Positions 1 to 35,226 of a stretch of 64,000 bases of DNA are shown in pieces. The stretch is from Shinella kummerowiae. GTDB lineage: Bacteria; Pseudomonadota; Alphaproteobacteria; Rhizobiales; Rhizobiaceae. The notes beneath the pieces were generated by a model. It saw nothing but the letters and a program-made list of their open reading frames with translations, was not told where the DNA came from and did not search any database. The stretch's first letter is position 1, and each line of letters starts with the position of its first letter. The stretch is from the NCBI RefSeq assembly GCF_009827055.1, contig NZ_WUMK01000008.1, positions 248,001 through 312,000 of the forward strand, read 5' to 3'. The position numbers and the translations under genes are program-made.

Positions 1-1177
1 GGCGGGCGACGTCGCCCTTGATGGTGAGCCGGCGCGCCAGATCGGCGATGAGGCCGGTCTCCGCCGGACGGTCGCGAAACCCGTTGCGCGCGAGCCGGCC
101 GAGCGAAGGCAGGATGAGGTTCGATGCGATGGAATGGGGCAGGACCAGCCCCTCATGTTTGCGGTCGGCCGGCACATAGACGAGGCCGGCGGCATTCGCC
201 GCGCCGACATCCGCGGGCAAGCCGGATTTTCCGGAAACCTCCGCGCTGGAGGCCTTGGCCGGGATCGCTCCATAAAGGCCCAGCAGCAGATCTTCCTGCC
301 CCTGCCCGACAAGCCCGCCGATGCCGACGATTTCGCCGGCGCGGGCAGAGAAGGCGATGTCGCGCACGAGGCCTGCGGAAAAACCCGTAACGTCCACGCG
401 CGGCGCGCCGGGCGTGCAGGCCGGGCGCGGCGGAAAGAGGTCACCCGTCTCGCGGCCGACCATCAGGCGCACCAGCCCTTCACCATCGATACCCGATAGC
501 GACTGGTCCGCCGTGACACCGCCGTCCTTCAGCACGGTGACATGCGCGCAGAGCGCCTGCACCTCGTTGAGGCGGTGGGAAATGTAGAGAAGTGCTGTGC
601 CGCGGTCCCGCAGCATCTCGATGACGCCGGCCAGAATGCCCGCCTCATGGGCGGAAAGCGAGGAGGTCGGCTCATCGAGGATGAGCACACGCGGCTTGCG
701 GAACAGCGCCTTGGCGATCTCCACCATCTGGCGACGGCCAAGGGCGAGATCGGCAACCGGCATGTCGAGCGGCTCGGTCAACCCCACCATGGCGCAGACC
801 TCTCGCACACCACGGTGCAGGGCTGCATAGTCGATCAGGCCGAAGCGGCGCGGGAAGGCGCCGAGCCCGATGTTTTCAGCAATCGACAGGTCGGCGGTGA
901 GGCTGAGTTCCTGCTGCACCACGGCGATGCCGGCCGCGCGGGCGGTGGCCGGGCTGAAACGCCCGACCGGCCGACCGTCGACGGCAATCGCGCCGCTATC
1001 CGGCTGGAGAGCGCCGGAAAGAAGATTGATGAGTGTGGACTTTCCAGCGCCGTTCTCCCCCAGCAGGGCGTGCACCCTGCCGGGATGAAGGGCGATATCG
1101 ACGCCCTTCAGAACGGGATTGCCGAAAAATCCCTTGAACACCTGCCGGGCCTCCAGCAGGGGTTTTTTGTCCGTCAT
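1..1177 (-). CDS. Sugar ABC transporter ATP-binding protein (partial, C-terminus outside window)
   Basis: Cytoplasmic ATPase of a sugar importer of the RbsA/XylG/MglA type, which carries two nucleotide-binding domains in one chain. I translated the open frame from ATG 1177 (after a GAAGGATG ribosome site) to the window edge, about 392 residues. The first domain has Walker A GENGAGKST, a Q-loop VVQQELSL, a degenerate signature LALGRRQ as is usual in this family, and Walker B VLILDEPTSSLSA. The frame continues into a second domain that is incomplete here. It starts 20 bp after the stop of the binding-protein gene, so the two are one operon; the permease presumably lies off the left edge. The exact sugar cannot be read from the sequence. 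Confidence 0.9.
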   Translation of the reverse strand, partial: MTDKKPLLEARQVFKGFFGNPVLKGVDIALHPGRVHALLGENGAGKSTLINLLSGALQPDSGAIAVDGRPVGRFSPATARAAGIAVVQQELSLTADLSIAENIGLGAFPRRFGLIDYAALHRGVREVCAMVGLTEPLDMPVADLALGRRQMVEIAKALFRKPRVLILDEPTSSLSAHEAGILAGVIEMLRDRGTALLYISHRLNEVQALCAHVTVLKDGGVTADQSLSGIDGEGLVRLMVGRETGDLFPPRPACTPGAPRVDVTGFSAGLVRDIAFSARAGEIVGIGGLVGQGQEDLLLGLYGAIPAKASSAEVSGKSGLPADVGAANAAGLVYVPADRKHEGLVLPHSIASNLILPSLGRLARNGFRDRPAETGLIADLARRLTIKGDVAR

Positions 1178-8352: not shown

Positions 8353-8442
8353 TGGCGGAGAGGGTGGGATTCGAACCCACGATACGGTTGCCCGTATGCC
8401 GCATTTCGAGTGCGGTGCTTTCGACCACTCAGCCACCTCTCC
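8353..8442 (-). tRNA. tRNA-Ser, anticodon CGA
   Basis: Read on the minus strand, a 90-nt class II tRNA. The acceptor stem GGAGAGG pairs with CCTCTCC, followed by discriminator G and an encoded CCA. The D-arm region is TGGCTGAGTGGTCGAAAGC, the anticodon arm is CCGCA-CTCGAAA-TGCGG (anticodon CGA, reads UCG), there is a long variable arm (GCATACGGGCAACCGTATC) and a T-arm GTGGG-TTCGAAT-CCCAC. The long variable arm is the hallmark of tRNA-Ser. Confidence 0.97.
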
Positions 8443-31819: not shown

Positions 31820-33709
31820 TCAATCCATGGCGTGGATGTCGCGATCCTTGGTTTCCGGCAGGAACAGCAGGCCGATGACCAGCGTGATGCCTGCGAAGAC
31901 GATCGGATACCAGAGACCGTAGTAGATATCGCCCTGGGCAGCACTCATCGCGAAGGCCGTTGCCGGCAGCAGACCGCCGAACCAGCCGTTGCCGATATGG
32001 TAGGGCAACGACATGCCGGTGTAGCGGATGCGGGTCGGGAAGAGTTCGACCAAGAGGGCGGCGATCGGGCCGTAGACCATCGTGACGTAGATCACGAGGA
32101 CCGTCAGCACGGCGATGATGGTGATCCAGTTCACGCCGGCCGGATCGGCCACCATGGTGAAGGTGCCGCCGCCGGCAATGGTATAGACCGGCATGTCGGT
32201 GACACCGGCGGCTTCTTCCGCCGTCAGCAGCTTGCCTGCGACGAGATCGGCTGCCGGCATACTTGCCTTTTCACCCGCGCGGATGGCAGCAGCATCGAGC
32301 GCAAGCTCCGGGTTTGCCGCGACGAACGCGTCGAGCTTGCTGTCCGGAACCTTCGCCGCACCGCGGACCAGCGGATAGCCGGCATCGTGAAGCGCGATGT
32401 TGGTCTGCTTCTGGAAGGCACCGTCGAGCGCCTTGGCCTGGTCGCCAGCCGCAATCGCGTCATAGCTGTTGATCGTCTGTTCGCCGATCTTCACCGTTGC
32501 CGCCGTGCCGGCAGCCGCCGTAGTGACGACGTCATAGGGCACCGAGTTCTTGGTGAGGAACGAGGTCGCGATATCGCAAGAGGTGGTGAACTTCGCCGTG
32601 CCCGTCGGGTTGAACTGGAACTTGCAGTCCTCGGGGGCTGCGGTGACGGTCGCGCGGACCGTATCCTGTGCCGTTGCGAGTGCCGGGTTGCCGGCCCAGG
32701 TCAGCGCCTTGAACAGCGGGAAGTAGGTGAGCATGGCGAGCAGCAGGCCGGCCATGATGATCGGCTTGCGGCCGATCTTGTCGGACAGCCAGCCGAAGAA
32801 GACGAAGAAGCCGGTGCCAAGGAGCAGCGAGCAGGCGACCATGATATTGGCCGACTGGCCGTCCACCTTCAGCACGCCTGTCAGGAAGAACAGCGCGTAG
32901 AACTGGCCGGAATACCAAACCACGGCCTGGCCGACGACGGCGCCGAACAGCGCGAGCAGCGCGATCTTGGCGTTGCGCCACTGGCCGAAGGCTTCCGTCA
33001 GCGGTGCCTTGGAGCCCTTGCCCTCTTCCTTCATCTTCGCGAAGGCCGGCGATTCGTTCATCTTCAGACGGATCCAGACGGAAACGCCGAGCAGAACGAC
33101 CGACAGCAGGAACGGAATGCGCCAGCCCCATTCGGCAAAGGCTTCCTTGCCAACGATGAACTGCACCGCAAGGATGACCACCAGCGAGAGGAACAGGCCG
33201 AGCGTCGCCGTCGTCTGGATCCACGAGGTGAAGTAGCCGCGACGGCCCTCGGGCGCGTGTTCGGCCACGTAGGTGGCAGCGCCGCCATATTCACCGCCGA
33301 GCGCCAGGCCCTGCAGCATGCGCAGCAGGATCAGGATGATCGGAGCGGCGATACCGATGGTGGCGGCACCGGGCAGCAGGCCCACGACGAAGGTCGAGAC
33401 GCCCATGATGAGAATGGTGACGAGGAAGGTGTACTTGCGCCCGACGAGATCGCCGAGGCGGCCGAACACCAGAGCGCCGAACGGGCGCACGAGAAAGCCG
33501 GCGGCGAAGGCGAGCAGCGCGAAGATGTTGCGCGTCGTTTCCGGATACTGGCTGAAGAAGGTGGCGCCGATATAGATCGCCAGCGAACCGTAAAGATAGA
33601 AATCGTACCATTCGAAAACAGTGCCGAGCGAAGAGGCGAAGATCACCTTCTTCTGCTCACCCGTCATGGGCGCCGCTTTGGCGTTGCCCACCGTCGAAAC
33701 ATTGGCCAT
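31820..33709 (-). CDS. MFS transporter, MHS-type, with large extracytoplasmic insert
   Basis: Major facilitator of the metabolite:H+ symporter family (relatives of ProP, KgtP, ShiA). Family marks are VFEWYDFYLYGSLA near the N-terminus, FGRLGDLVGRKYTFL between segments 2 and 3, and ALGGEYGGAATYVAEHAP. Unusually, about 185 residues (roughly 340-525) lie between two membrane segments in the second half; this hydrophilic stretch has Cys362 and Cys378, which could form a disulphide outside the membrane. Total 629 residues against about 430-450 for the family. GGAGGA precedes ATG 33709. Substrate unknown; an organic acid or betaine-type solute is likely. Confidence 0.9.
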   Translation of the reverse strand: MANVSTVGNAKAAPMTGEQKKVIFASSLGTVFEWYDFYLYGSLAIYIGATFFSQYPETTRNIFALLAFAAGFLVRPFGALVFGRLGDLVGRKYTFLVTILIMGVSTFVVGLLPGAATIGIAAPIILILLRMLQGLALGGEYGGAATYVAEHAPEGRRGYFTSWIQTTATLGLFLSLVVILAVQFIVGKEAFAEWGWRIPFLLSVVLLGVSVWIRLKMNESPAFAKMKEEGKGSKAPLTEAFGQWRNAKIALLALFGAVVGQAVVWYSGQFYALFFLTGVLKVDGQSANIMVACSLLLGTGFFVFFGWLSDKIGRKPIIMAGLLLAMLTYFPLFKALTWAGNPALATAQDTVRATVTAAPEDCKFQFNPTGTAKFTTSCDIATSFLTKNSVPYDVVTTAAAGTAATVKIGEQTINSYDAIAAGDQAKALDGAFQKQTNIALHDAGYPLVRGAAKVPDSKLDAFVAANPELALDAAAIRAGEKASMPAADLVAGKLLTAEEAAGVTDMPVYTIAGGGTFTMVADPAGVNWITIIAVLTVLVIYVTMVYGPIAALLVELFPTRIRYTGMSLPYHIGNGWFGGLLPATAFAMSAAQGDIYYGLWYPIVFAGITLVIGLLFLPETKDRDIHAMD

Positions 33710-33910
33710 TTGTTTGTCCTCCACAAAAACGGCGTATCGGGGCAGCCCATGAAGGTCCGGAGTTTCTCCCAAAAAACGCCGGACGGGGTGCGCCTGATCG
33801 AAGGATGGCAGAAAACGGACTGTGATATCAGCGCTGCTTTGGGCTTATGACTTTCGGCCTACGACTTAAGTCGAGGACCAGACCGAAACACCGGATCGGG
33901 CAGGCAAGGC

Positions 33911-33938
33911 TTGACTCTTCACGAGATCAGCGTATTCA
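33911..33938 (+). promoter_or_regulatory. Candidate promoter for the leader ORF and asd
   Basis: TTGACT (33911-33916), 16-bp spacer, TATTCA (33933-33938); the -35 is preceded by C, giving the rhizobial CTTGAC. It lies 22 bp upstream of the small ORF at 33961. Confidence 0.45.
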
Positions 33939-33960
33939 GCACGCACGCAAAGGAACTGAC

Positions 33961-34080
33961 ATGAACCGCTTTGGTCTTTCCATCGCCCGCATGATCGCTC
34001 CGGCCTTCAACGCCGGACGGGTTCGCTATTGCGTATCGAATTCCAAAACACTGGCCAAAACGACGACGAAAACCGTCTGA
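33961..34080 (+). CDS. Thr/Lys-rich small ORF upstream of asd, possible leader peptide
   Basis: A 39-codon ORF with a clear ribosome site (AAAGGA, seven bases before ATG). The last twelve codons encode SKTLAKTTTKTV, five Thr and three Lys. It ends 111 bp before asd, and the gap holds two hairpins with a competing third segment. Asd supplies the branch point to lysine and threonine, so these are the residues an attenuation leader would sense. I do not recognise the protein; it may instead be a small structural protein or chance. Coding is supported by the ribosome site and by its position after a candidate promoter. Confidence 0.5.
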   Translation: MNRFGLSIARMIAPAFNAGRVRYCVSNSKTLAKTTTKTV

Positions 34081-34100
34081 CGTCTCTGGCCACCGCTCTC

Positions 34101-34165
34101 TCCCCGGTAAGGCCGGGGACCGAAACCCGCGCTTTGGCCGGCGGGTTTCCCTCCTGAACCCGCGG
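34101..34165 (+). promoter_or_regulatory. Hairpin cluster between the leader ORF and asd (possible attenuator)
   Basis: Hairpin 1 is TCCCCGG (34101-34107) with CCGGGGA (34113-34119). Hairpin 2 pairs AAACCCGC (34123-34130) with GCGGGTTT (34141-34148). The same GCGGGTT can pair instead with AACCCGC (34157-34163), so the two are exclusive. The loop of hairpin 2 (TTTGGCC, 34133-34139) is complementary to GGCCAAA (34053-34059) inside the Lys/Thr codons of the leader ORF. Only three T follow hairpin 2, so a classic terminator is not evident. Confidence 0.45.
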
Positions 34166-34191
34166 AGAGACAGAGAAAGAGAGCTTTAGAT

Positions 34192-35226
34192 ATGGGTTTC
34201 AAGATCGCAGTCGCCGGCGCGACCGGCAATGTCGGCCGCGAAATGCTGAACATCCTTTCCGAACGCGGCTTCCCGGCCGACGAGGTCGTTGCCCTGGCAT
34301 CCAGCCGCTCGCAGGGCACCGAGGTCTCCTTCGGCGACAAGACGCTGAAGGTGCAGAACCTCGAAAACTACGATTTCTCCGACACGGACATCTGCCTGAT
34401 GTCGGCTGGCGGCACGGTTTCGCAGAAGTACTCGCCGAAGATCGGCGCCCAGGGTTGCGTCGTCATCGACAATTCCTCGGCCTGGCGCTACGACGCCGAC
34501 GTTCCGCTGATCGTTCCGGAAGTGAACCCGGACGCCATCAGCCTGTTCACCCGCAAGAACATCATCGCCAATCCGAATTGCTCGACCGCCCAGCTCGTCG
34601 TCGCGCTGAAGCCGCTGCATGACCGCGCCAAGATCAAGCGCGTCGTCGTCTCGACCTATCAGTCGGTCTCCGGCGCCGGCAAGGAAGGCATGGACGAGCT
34701 CTTCCAGCAGACGCGCGCCGTCTTCGTCGCCGATCCGGTCGAATCGAAGAAGTTCACCAAGCGCATCGCCTTCAACGTCATCCCGCATATCGATAGCTTC
34801 ATGGAAGACGGCTATACGAAGGAAGAGTGGAAGGTTCTCGCCGAGACCAAGAAGATGCTCGACCCGAAGATCAAGGTGACCTGCACGGCGGTGCGCGTGC
34901 CCGTCTTCATCGGTCATTCCGAATCGGTCAACATCGAGTTCGAAAACGAGATCACGGCGGACGAAGCCCGCGAGATTCTGCGCGAGGCCCCGGGTTGCCA
35001 GGTCATCGACAAGCACGAAAACGGCGGCTACATCACGCCGTACGAATCGGCCGGTGAAGACGCCACCTACATCTCGCGCATCCGCGAGGACGCAACTGTC
35101 GAAAACGGCCTCAACATCTGGGTCGTTTCCGACAACCTGCGCAAGGGTGCCGCCCTCAACGCCATCCAGATCGCGGAGCTGCTGGTCGCCCGCGGCCTGA
35201 TCAAGGCGAAGAAGCAGGCCGCCTGA
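34192..35226 (+). CDS. asd: Aspartate-semialdehyde dehydrogenase
   Basis: Reduces aspartyl phosphate to aspartate semialdehyde, the branch point to lysine/diaminopimelate, threonine, methionine and isoleucine. Rossmann start KIAVAGATGNVGREMLNIL, ALASSRSQGTEVSF, CLMSAGGTVSQKYSP, the active-site cysteine in IIANPNCSTAQLVVAL, and the later VPVFIGHSESVNIEFE (substrate His). 344 residues. ATG 34192 has the purine-rich AGAGAG upstream. Probably cotranscribed with the small ORF at 33961. Confidence 0.98.
   Translation: MGFKIAVAGATGNVGREMLNILSERGFPADEVVALASSRSQGTEVSFGDKTLKVQNLENYDFSDTDICLMSAGGTVSQKYSPKIGAQGCVVIDNSSAWRYDADVPLIVPEVNPDAISLFTRKNIIANPNCSTAQLVVALKPLHDRAKIKRVVVSTYQSVSGAGKEGMDELFQQTRAVFVADPVESKKFTKRIAFNVIPHIDSFMEDGYTKEEWKVLAETKKMLDPKIKVTCTAVRVPVFIGHSESVNIEFENEITADEAREILREAPGCQVIDKHENGGYITPYESAGEDATYISRIREDATVENGLNIWVVSDNLRKGAALNAIQIAELLVARGLIKAKKQAA

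Follow-up and report, generated by a model that had tools for sequence, protein, structure and literature searches.

Aspartate-semialdehyde dehydrogenase (Asd) acts at the point where the routes to lysine, cell-wall diaminopimelate, threonine, methionine and isoleucine part. In the window, by which we mean the whole 64,000-nucleotide stretch of DNA analysed here, asd is preceded by a short open reading frame (ORF) whose end is crowded with threonine and lysine codons. The question is whether this ORF is a regulatory leader and, if it is, how it would act on asd. The host genome (6.34 Mb, 41 contigs) is Shinella-like and belongs to the Rhizobiaceae, since the nearest named relatives by Asd among the best 80 of 588 loci include Shinella fusca and Rhizobium sp. 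Leaf371 (95% each) and the top DNA match of the leader region in a plasmid collection (7 records) is a Shinella record. The features of the locus on which the analysis turns are as follows.

33910..33938, + strand: predicted promoter of leader and asd, with CTTGAC at 33910-33915 and TATTCA at 33933-33938, from sequence conservation
33950..33955, + strand: leader ribosome-binding site AAGGAA; nearly all Rhizobiaceae loci have a purine-rich site in the same place
33961..34080, + strand: leader ORF of 39 codons, MNRFGLSIARMIAPAFNAGRVRYCVSNSKTLAKTTTKTV, ending in SKTLAKTTTKTV before the stop; seen in the sequence and conserved in relatives
34045..34074, + strand: cluster of Thr/Lys codons, the proposed control codons and part of segment 1; enriched over shuffled sequence
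34178..34184, + strand: AGAGAGC, probable asd ribosome-binding site, a role suggested by its spacing
34192..35226, + strand: asd, aspartate-semialdehyde dehydrogenase (Pfam PF01118 and PF02774; NCBIfam NF011456 and TIGR01296, above cut-off)

Conservation of the leader ORF and its predicted promoter

A sequence-only reading of the window had described a 39-codon ORF with a ribosome-binding site before asd and had counted five Thr and three Lys codons among its last 12. Both descriptions agree with the window sequence, in which the Thr codons are ACA, ACG (three times) and ACC and the Lys codons are all AAA. Using a leader criterion of an upstream ORF with at least six Thr+Lys in its last 12 codons, we examined the best 80 of 588 confirmed stretches encoding a relative. 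The window and all 80 of these fetched nearest loci carry such a leader, and its stop lies 80-128 nt upstream of asd. Nearly all of the Rhizobiaceae leaders have a possible start 36-43 codons ahead of the stop and, before that start, a purine-rich site; their N-terminal part is variable and their C-terminal end, mostly AKTTTKTV, is nearly invariant.

In eight loci, most of them titled Agrobacterium (L044, L049, L054, L055, L065, L066, L068 and L069), one leader Thr is replaced by Ile (AKTTIKTV). Seven of the eight have a TTG start at the conserved distance, and L069 has an undetermined base there.

Across the order, 150 genomes were searched and 148 gave a strong Asd match, including the window's own; from the 147 others we read 109 loci and left out 38. 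A leader by the same criterion was found in 58 of these 109 further loci; their 109 reverse complements gave none, and 1090 dinucleotide shuffles gave one. The remaining 51 loci lack a leader by the Thr+Lys score. The leader-bearing loci represent 23 of the 39 families read, with family labels copied by hand from the order-wide list of Asd genomes. Leader ends such as KTTTKTTA, SKTTTTKTTV and KTKTTKTT are spelled with differing codons in distant taxa, so it is the amino acids, not the codons, that are conserved. Outside the order, 77 genomes had an Asd match, and a leader was present in 2 of the 28 most similar loci, which were the ones read (L199 and L220). With 58 of 109 loci inside the order and 2 of 28 outside it, the element is mainly one of this order, much of which lacks it. 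The sequence-only reading had staked its proposal on the ORF and its Thr/Lys codons being conserved in relatives, and on these counts they are, both among the 80 nearest loci and, relative to shuffled sequence, across the order.

Altogether, we collected 139 leader-bearing loci; a length filter removed one, and 53 of the remaining 138 formed a non-redundant set at post-stop similarity under 0.80. Subsets of these 53 served for covering nucleotides behind the stop (52), for blocking of a downstream segment, D (48), and for comparison with control blocking (46). Thr is the second codon before the stop in 40 of the 53 species; this and other Thr/Lys counts from the set are biased upward because leaders were called by Thr+Lys of at least six. 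A Shine-Dalgarno (SD)-like site from a hand-made motif list precedes a leader start in 24 of the 53. Searching the window's genome with a covariance model of the element gives a single strong place, at 91.5 bits, the next scoring 23; of 61 family genomes, the window's own included, 44 have a match at E<=0.01. An asd start lies close downstream in all ten of the best covariance-model loci read (L222, L226-L234).

The leader is also preceded by a promoter-like site. Each of the 72 Rhizobiaceae loci examined has a TTGAC and a -10-like hexamer in front of its leader; these loci are related to one another, and the -10 was picked as the best fit. TTGAC occurs anywhere in 158 of 1440 shuffled regions. 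The distance from the end of the -10 to the leader stop is 136-147 nt in 71 of the loci and 129 nt in one. A generic promoter scan reported nothing at the leader region. A transcription start downstream of 34080 would have spoken against the sequence-only reading; judged by sequence, the promoter-like site is upstream of that position. Taken as a conserved sequence, the ORF is a real Thr/Lys leader before asd, and it is very probably a regulatory one.

In one S. meliloti record (CP090106.1, L082:1367-1537), the leader is annotated as hypothetical protein LZK74_33660, with a TTG start that falls within the -35-like CTTGAC. This annotated start is probably wrong, because the conserved leader start is matched better by the ATG at 1418.

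Vitreschak et al. 2004, whose subject is reportedly proteobacterial attenuators, may bear on novelty. Among the papers that our literature search listed, PMC10117765 alone was recognised as dealing with an alphaproteobacterial asd leader. The available part of this paper describes SEP5 of S. meliloti, a translated product that is "possibly a leader peptide" in post-transcriptional control, has six Thr and three Lys codons near its 3′ end and sits in the 5′-UTR of a gene named 'aspartate dehydrogenase'. It calls SEP5 conserved only in Sinorhizobium and also mentions the S. meliloti trp attenuator (PMC10117765). The S. meliloti asd leader in our set ends in KTTAKTTTKTV before its stop and is almost surely SEP5, because this end has the six Thr and three Lys; the leader ORF of the window is almost surely the same ORF. 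As far as the available part of the paper goes, the leader idea was already published for Sinorhizobium and no RNA structure was given, and what is new here, relative to the papers that our search listed, is the wider range, 23 of the 39 families read, together with the alternative pairings.

Candidate alternative pairings behind the leader stop

Four segments between the leader stop and the asd ribosome-binding site can pair with one another in alternative ways.

34082..34091, + strand: segment 2, GTCTCTGGCC, directly after the leader stop; possible partners are B and, for Rhizobiaceae, in part the codons
34097..34107, + strand: segment A, TCTCTCCCCGG; 34097-34103 can pair with D and 34101-34107 with B
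34111..34120, + strand: segment B, GGCCGGGGAC, contested by segments 2 and A
34164..34170, + strand: segment D, GGAGAGA, ahead of the asd ribosome-binding site; a possible partner of A

In the window, the possible 2:B helix has ten pairs, two of them G-U, and A:B and A:D overlap by only 3 nt. The AGAGAGC before the asd start is also able to pair with A (GCTCTCT). RNAalifold applied to 20 sequences draws 2:B, with two-sided change in 7 of 17 pairs and a small covariation term (-0.46). Since the helices of these segments barely vary within Rhizobiaceae, the tests were moved to the 53 non-redundant loci of the order.

We made thirteen segment comparisons on these loci, for which the p values are uncorrected and the species share ancestry. 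The duplex energy of A with D is better than that of shuffled A (p=1e-6) and of swapped partners (p=2.9e-3, 36/53). For A with B, the energy is better than with swaps (p=8e-5) but no better than with shuffles (p=0.44); for 2 with B it differs significantly from neither (p=0.06 vs shuffles, 0.18 vs swaps). Scored instead by the longest helix, 2 with B reaches p=0.001 against both shuffles and swaps, and A with B reaches p=0.0038 against shuffles and 0.028 against swaps; the B stretch of this longest-helix test extends into D in two short leaders, L086 and L123.

Two further candidates were tried. A test of long segments, stop-side against start-side, did no better than swapped partners (0.457 of swaps as good), and long-segment duplexes were dropped as too diffuse and without swap support. 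Pairing of the codons with segment 2 is unsupported as a general feature across the order.

The position of the A:D helix recurs as well. The best helix between the stop side and the start side has its A strand at stop+17..28 and its D strand 8..33 nt ahead of the asd start in 43 of 53 loci, compared with 222 of 1060 controls in which both sides were shuffled and 405 of 1060 in which D was; this range was set after the helix positions had been seen. The helix is spelled in different ways, such as CTCTCCC/GGGAGAG, CGTCCTCC/GGGGGACG, TGCTTCCC/GGGAAGCG and ATGCTCTCCC/GGGAGAGCAT. With species taken singly, the longest stop-side/start-side helix reaches the 5% level in 9 of 53, the window among them. 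The strength of the alternative pairings lies in their recurrence, and 2:B, A:B and A:D are best regarded as candidate pairings that recur with partial support from partner swaps.

In L075 (titled Mesorhizobium microcysteis), one more hairpin, GGCGTGG..CCACGC, stands about 20-37 nt before asd. It lies between segment D and the asd ribosome site and is absent from most other loci.

Predicted switch and competing explanations

We propose a ribosome-mediated attenuator of asd that would read charged tRNA-Thr and tRNA-Lys. A ribosome would begin the leader ORF directly behind the promoter. If Thr or Lys were short, it would wait on the codon cluster and leave segment 2 free, segment 2 would pair with B, and A would stay open and could hold D, the purine patch before the asd ribosome-binding site. 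The A:D pairing would keep the asd start region more open, which is the ON state under shortage. If both amino acids were plentiful, the ribosome at the stop would cover segment 2, A would fold on B, and the free D would make the asd start less accessible, which is the OFF state. A:D would therefore favour and free D would hinder asd translation, a physiologically sensible direction, and the output would most likely be translation rather than Rho termination or mRNA decay. For an attenuator with the switch as described we see about an even chance, and for its exact output somewhat less.

We modelled the switch by folding that leaves out pseudoknots, with B already made and D not yet made, moving the ribosome edge from the first base of the leader stop to 12 nt beyond it. 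The advance lowers 2:B (higher before in 41/53), a fall that is trivial because the ribosome covers segment 2. Additionally, it raises A:B, which is higher after the advance in 36 of 53 and shows the reverse in 2, and A is more exposed before the advance in 30 of 53 with the reverse in none. The shift in A exposure is 0.146 in native sequences vs 0.069 with segment 2 shuffled (p=0.0035). Among ten Rhizobiaceae-type loci modelled with the ribosome upstream, five prefer 2:B (L012, L016, L026, L062 and L074), and the other five, the window included, prefer A:B in every state. A local switch between 2:B and A:B is thus predicted in many species, although not clearly in the window.

The link from such a switch to asd is weak. 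With ribosome masks over the whole leader, the asd start did not change cleanly from the stalled to the stop state. When segment 2 or A was shuffled, the asd ribosome site kept its opening energy (p=0.52 and 0.64, respectively), so direct sequestration of this SD by 2 or A is not supported by these controls. Blocking D, in contrast to blocking a control stretch, lowers the opening energy of the asd start region, from 6.08 to 5.44 kcal/mol (p=0.0093), with lower values in 28 and higher values in 11 of 48 loci; the difference from control blocking has p=0.013 (46 loci). The window behaves in the opposite way, as blocking D closes its asd start region from 4.2 to 5.8 kcal/mol. We also considered a dedicated partner of free D within the asd start. 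This was rejected, as D shows more complementarity to shuffled starts than to the real asd start (p=7.8e-8).

The sequence-only reading had named the missing T run as its own weak point, and this is true of nearly all loci: 2 of the 53 non-redundant loci, and 3 of all 139 with a leader, have a TTTTT anywhere from the leader stop to the asd start. A terminator scan found no intrinsic terminator on the + strand at the leader. Because no T run follows, an intrinsic terminator is unlikely, and it is for this reason that we infer translation as the level of control. A transcription attenuator with an intrinsic terminator was rejected, there being no G+C-rich hairpin with a T run before the gene.

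The same absence favours a different reading, Rho-dependent attenuation, in which the pyrimidine-rich CGTCTCTGGCC..CTCTCTCCCC behind the leader stop would be a Rho loading site and asd would be switched at elongation. Exposure of the site would be set by the position of the leader ribosome and by A:B or 2:B pairing. Segments 2 and A, both rich in C/U, are found repeatedly just after the leader stop, in a position that suits ribosome-controlled exposure, and Rho has been proposed weakly for cys leaders without terminators in the available part of PMC1262725. However, Rho alone does not explain the pairing of A with D in the asd start region, and we regard this explanation as possible though unlikely.

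Another explanation is translational coupling or re-initiation, in which the leader would serve as a landing ORF, A:D would bring the leader stop nearer to the asd start, and the codons would tune ribosome flow without any structural switch. The A:D pairing would indeed shorten the path from leader stop to asd start, and the leader is translated in S. meliloti according to the available part of PMC10117765. Covering nucleotides behind the leader stop also opens the asd ribosome site: its opening energy falls slightly when 12 or 18 nt are covered (p=0.012 and 4.5e-5), with no significant lowering for 6 nt (p=0.17), a pattern that fits a terminating ribosome better than a stalled one and counts against the proposed attenuator. 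Coupling leaves the alternative partner B unexplained, however, as well as the Thr/Lys bias relative to shuffles if the codons have no sensing role, and we consider it improbable.

The ORF could also encode a small protein acting in trans, whose Thr/Lys end would be part of the protein and not a sensor. In favour of this, the available part of PMC10117765 reports that tagged SEP5 of S. meliloti can be detected in soluble form. A functional protein would be hard to reconcile with the conservation of the last codons alone and with the varied spelling of the Thr/Lys codons in distant taxa. The leader of the window had no match in Pfam, and none of the three leaders searched against NCBIfam matched. 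We judge a protein acting in trans to be very unlikely.

This leaves the hairpins from which the attenuator had originally been argued.

34123..34148, + strand: hairpin AAACCCGC/GCGGGTTT of the sequence-only reading; not a conserved element

In the window, AAACCCGC is found at 34123-34130, GCGGGTTT at 34141-34148 and AACCCGC at 34157-34163, and the complementarities drawn, AAACCCGC:GCGGGTTT and GCGGGTTT:AACCCGC, are present. The first is the window's longest stop-side/start-side helix, which is thus not A:D. The drawn stems are not conserved: among 73 Rhizobiaceae-type loci, AAACCCGC occurs in 2 and GCGGGTTT in 3, so that the covariation sought in these stems fails for their absence from nearly all of the 73. 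A stalled ribosome had been thought to block the pairing of the loop TTTGGCC (34133-34139) with GGCCAAA (34053-34059) inside the codons; this complementarity is real in the window but not conserved, and TTTGGCC follows the leader in the window alone among the 73 loci. The stretch 34123..34148 shows no excess stability (mean z -0.29, 48 species), and the folding of the window's leader exceeds shuffles in stability by only a modest margin (z -2.03, matched by 5 of 200 shuffles). With neither a T run nor conserved stems, a classical trp-type transcription attenuator that uses AAACCCGC:GCGGGTTT or GCGGGTTT:AACCCGC as its terminator hairpin is scarcely credible, even with its complementarities present in the window. 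What survives of the original attenuator reading is the leader, its codons, the promoter-like site and candidate pairings that would exclude each other and lie where a ribosome near the end of the leader could disturb them; the drawn stems and the intrinsic terminator do not.

Relation to known leaders

Attenuators of the thrL/trpL type end in an intrinsic terminator with a U-run. The asd leader resembles them in having codons for pathway products near the end of a short leader ORF and candidate competing helices downstream, and differs in lacking a U-run terminator. The cat/erm translational attenuators likewise have a leader ORF, with an antibiotic as the inducer. The output proposed for the asd leader is also at translation start; unlike in cat/erm, direct sequestration of the ribosome-binding site is unsupported here. 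The asd RNA motif of Streptococcus (Rfam) is located upstream of asd and shares this position with our leader, which no Rfam family matches: there was none for the leader at gathering score and no + strand match in the leader region at E up to 5, where the relaxed scan gave one opposite-strand hit inside asd (E=2.1).

The sole Rfam match of the window at gathering score is a tRNA gene at 8356-8442 on the minus strand, and a search of phage sequences gave no match. Beside asd, a transporter-like ORF (31820-33772, minus strand), MFS-like by eye, has a polar stretch of more than 100 residues in mid-protein.

The nearest architecture appears, by analogy, to be that of the LEU element, which lies upstream of leuA in Actinobacteria and has a leader ORF with a run of pathway-product codons (PMC1262725). 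In the available part of that source, a possible pseudoknot of the LEU element is opposed to an alternative hairpin and the pairing reaches the downstream ribosome-binding site. The asd leader would share the product-codon ORF, the choice between a possible pseudoknot and an alternative hairpin, and a pairing that extends to the region of the downstream ribosome-binding site. It differs in amino acid, gene and phylum and is likened to LEU by architecture, not sequence; so far as the source is available, the base stem of LEU joins the codon run to the SD, whereas the asd leader would join the post-stop segment A to the patch D upstream of the SD (PMC1262725).

The asd leader is therefore ordinary in kind, and what is unusual is the lack of a terminator combined with putative competing long-range pairings. 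Since 2:B and A:D cross, the two together would form a pseudoknot. A bolder form of the proposed attenuator is that the leader is ancient within the order, has since disappeared from several families and senses Thr and Lys together, with the leader ribosome choosing between the hairpin A:B and an H-type pseudoknot 2:B+A:D that would present the asd start for translation. We hold this to be unlikely as it stands. If true, Proteobacteria would have their own equivalent of the actinobacterial LEU element, and an enzyme at the branch point of the aspartate family would be controlled without any terminator. More generally, a widespread joint Thr and Lys leader would show balancing of the aspartate pathway at the RNA level across a large order that includes nitrogen-fixing symbionts, and would extend terminator-free leader-peptide control with competing long-range pairings to Alphaproteobacteria. 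It would also turn an isolated small protein of S. meliloti into a member of a conserved, directly testable element.

In the three loci L121-L123, from one family, the element has shrunk to 72 nt before asd. B and D are near-copies there by eye (GGGGGAGAGA and CGGGGAGAGA), and A can pair with either of them, which makes these loci a clean test case for the competition.
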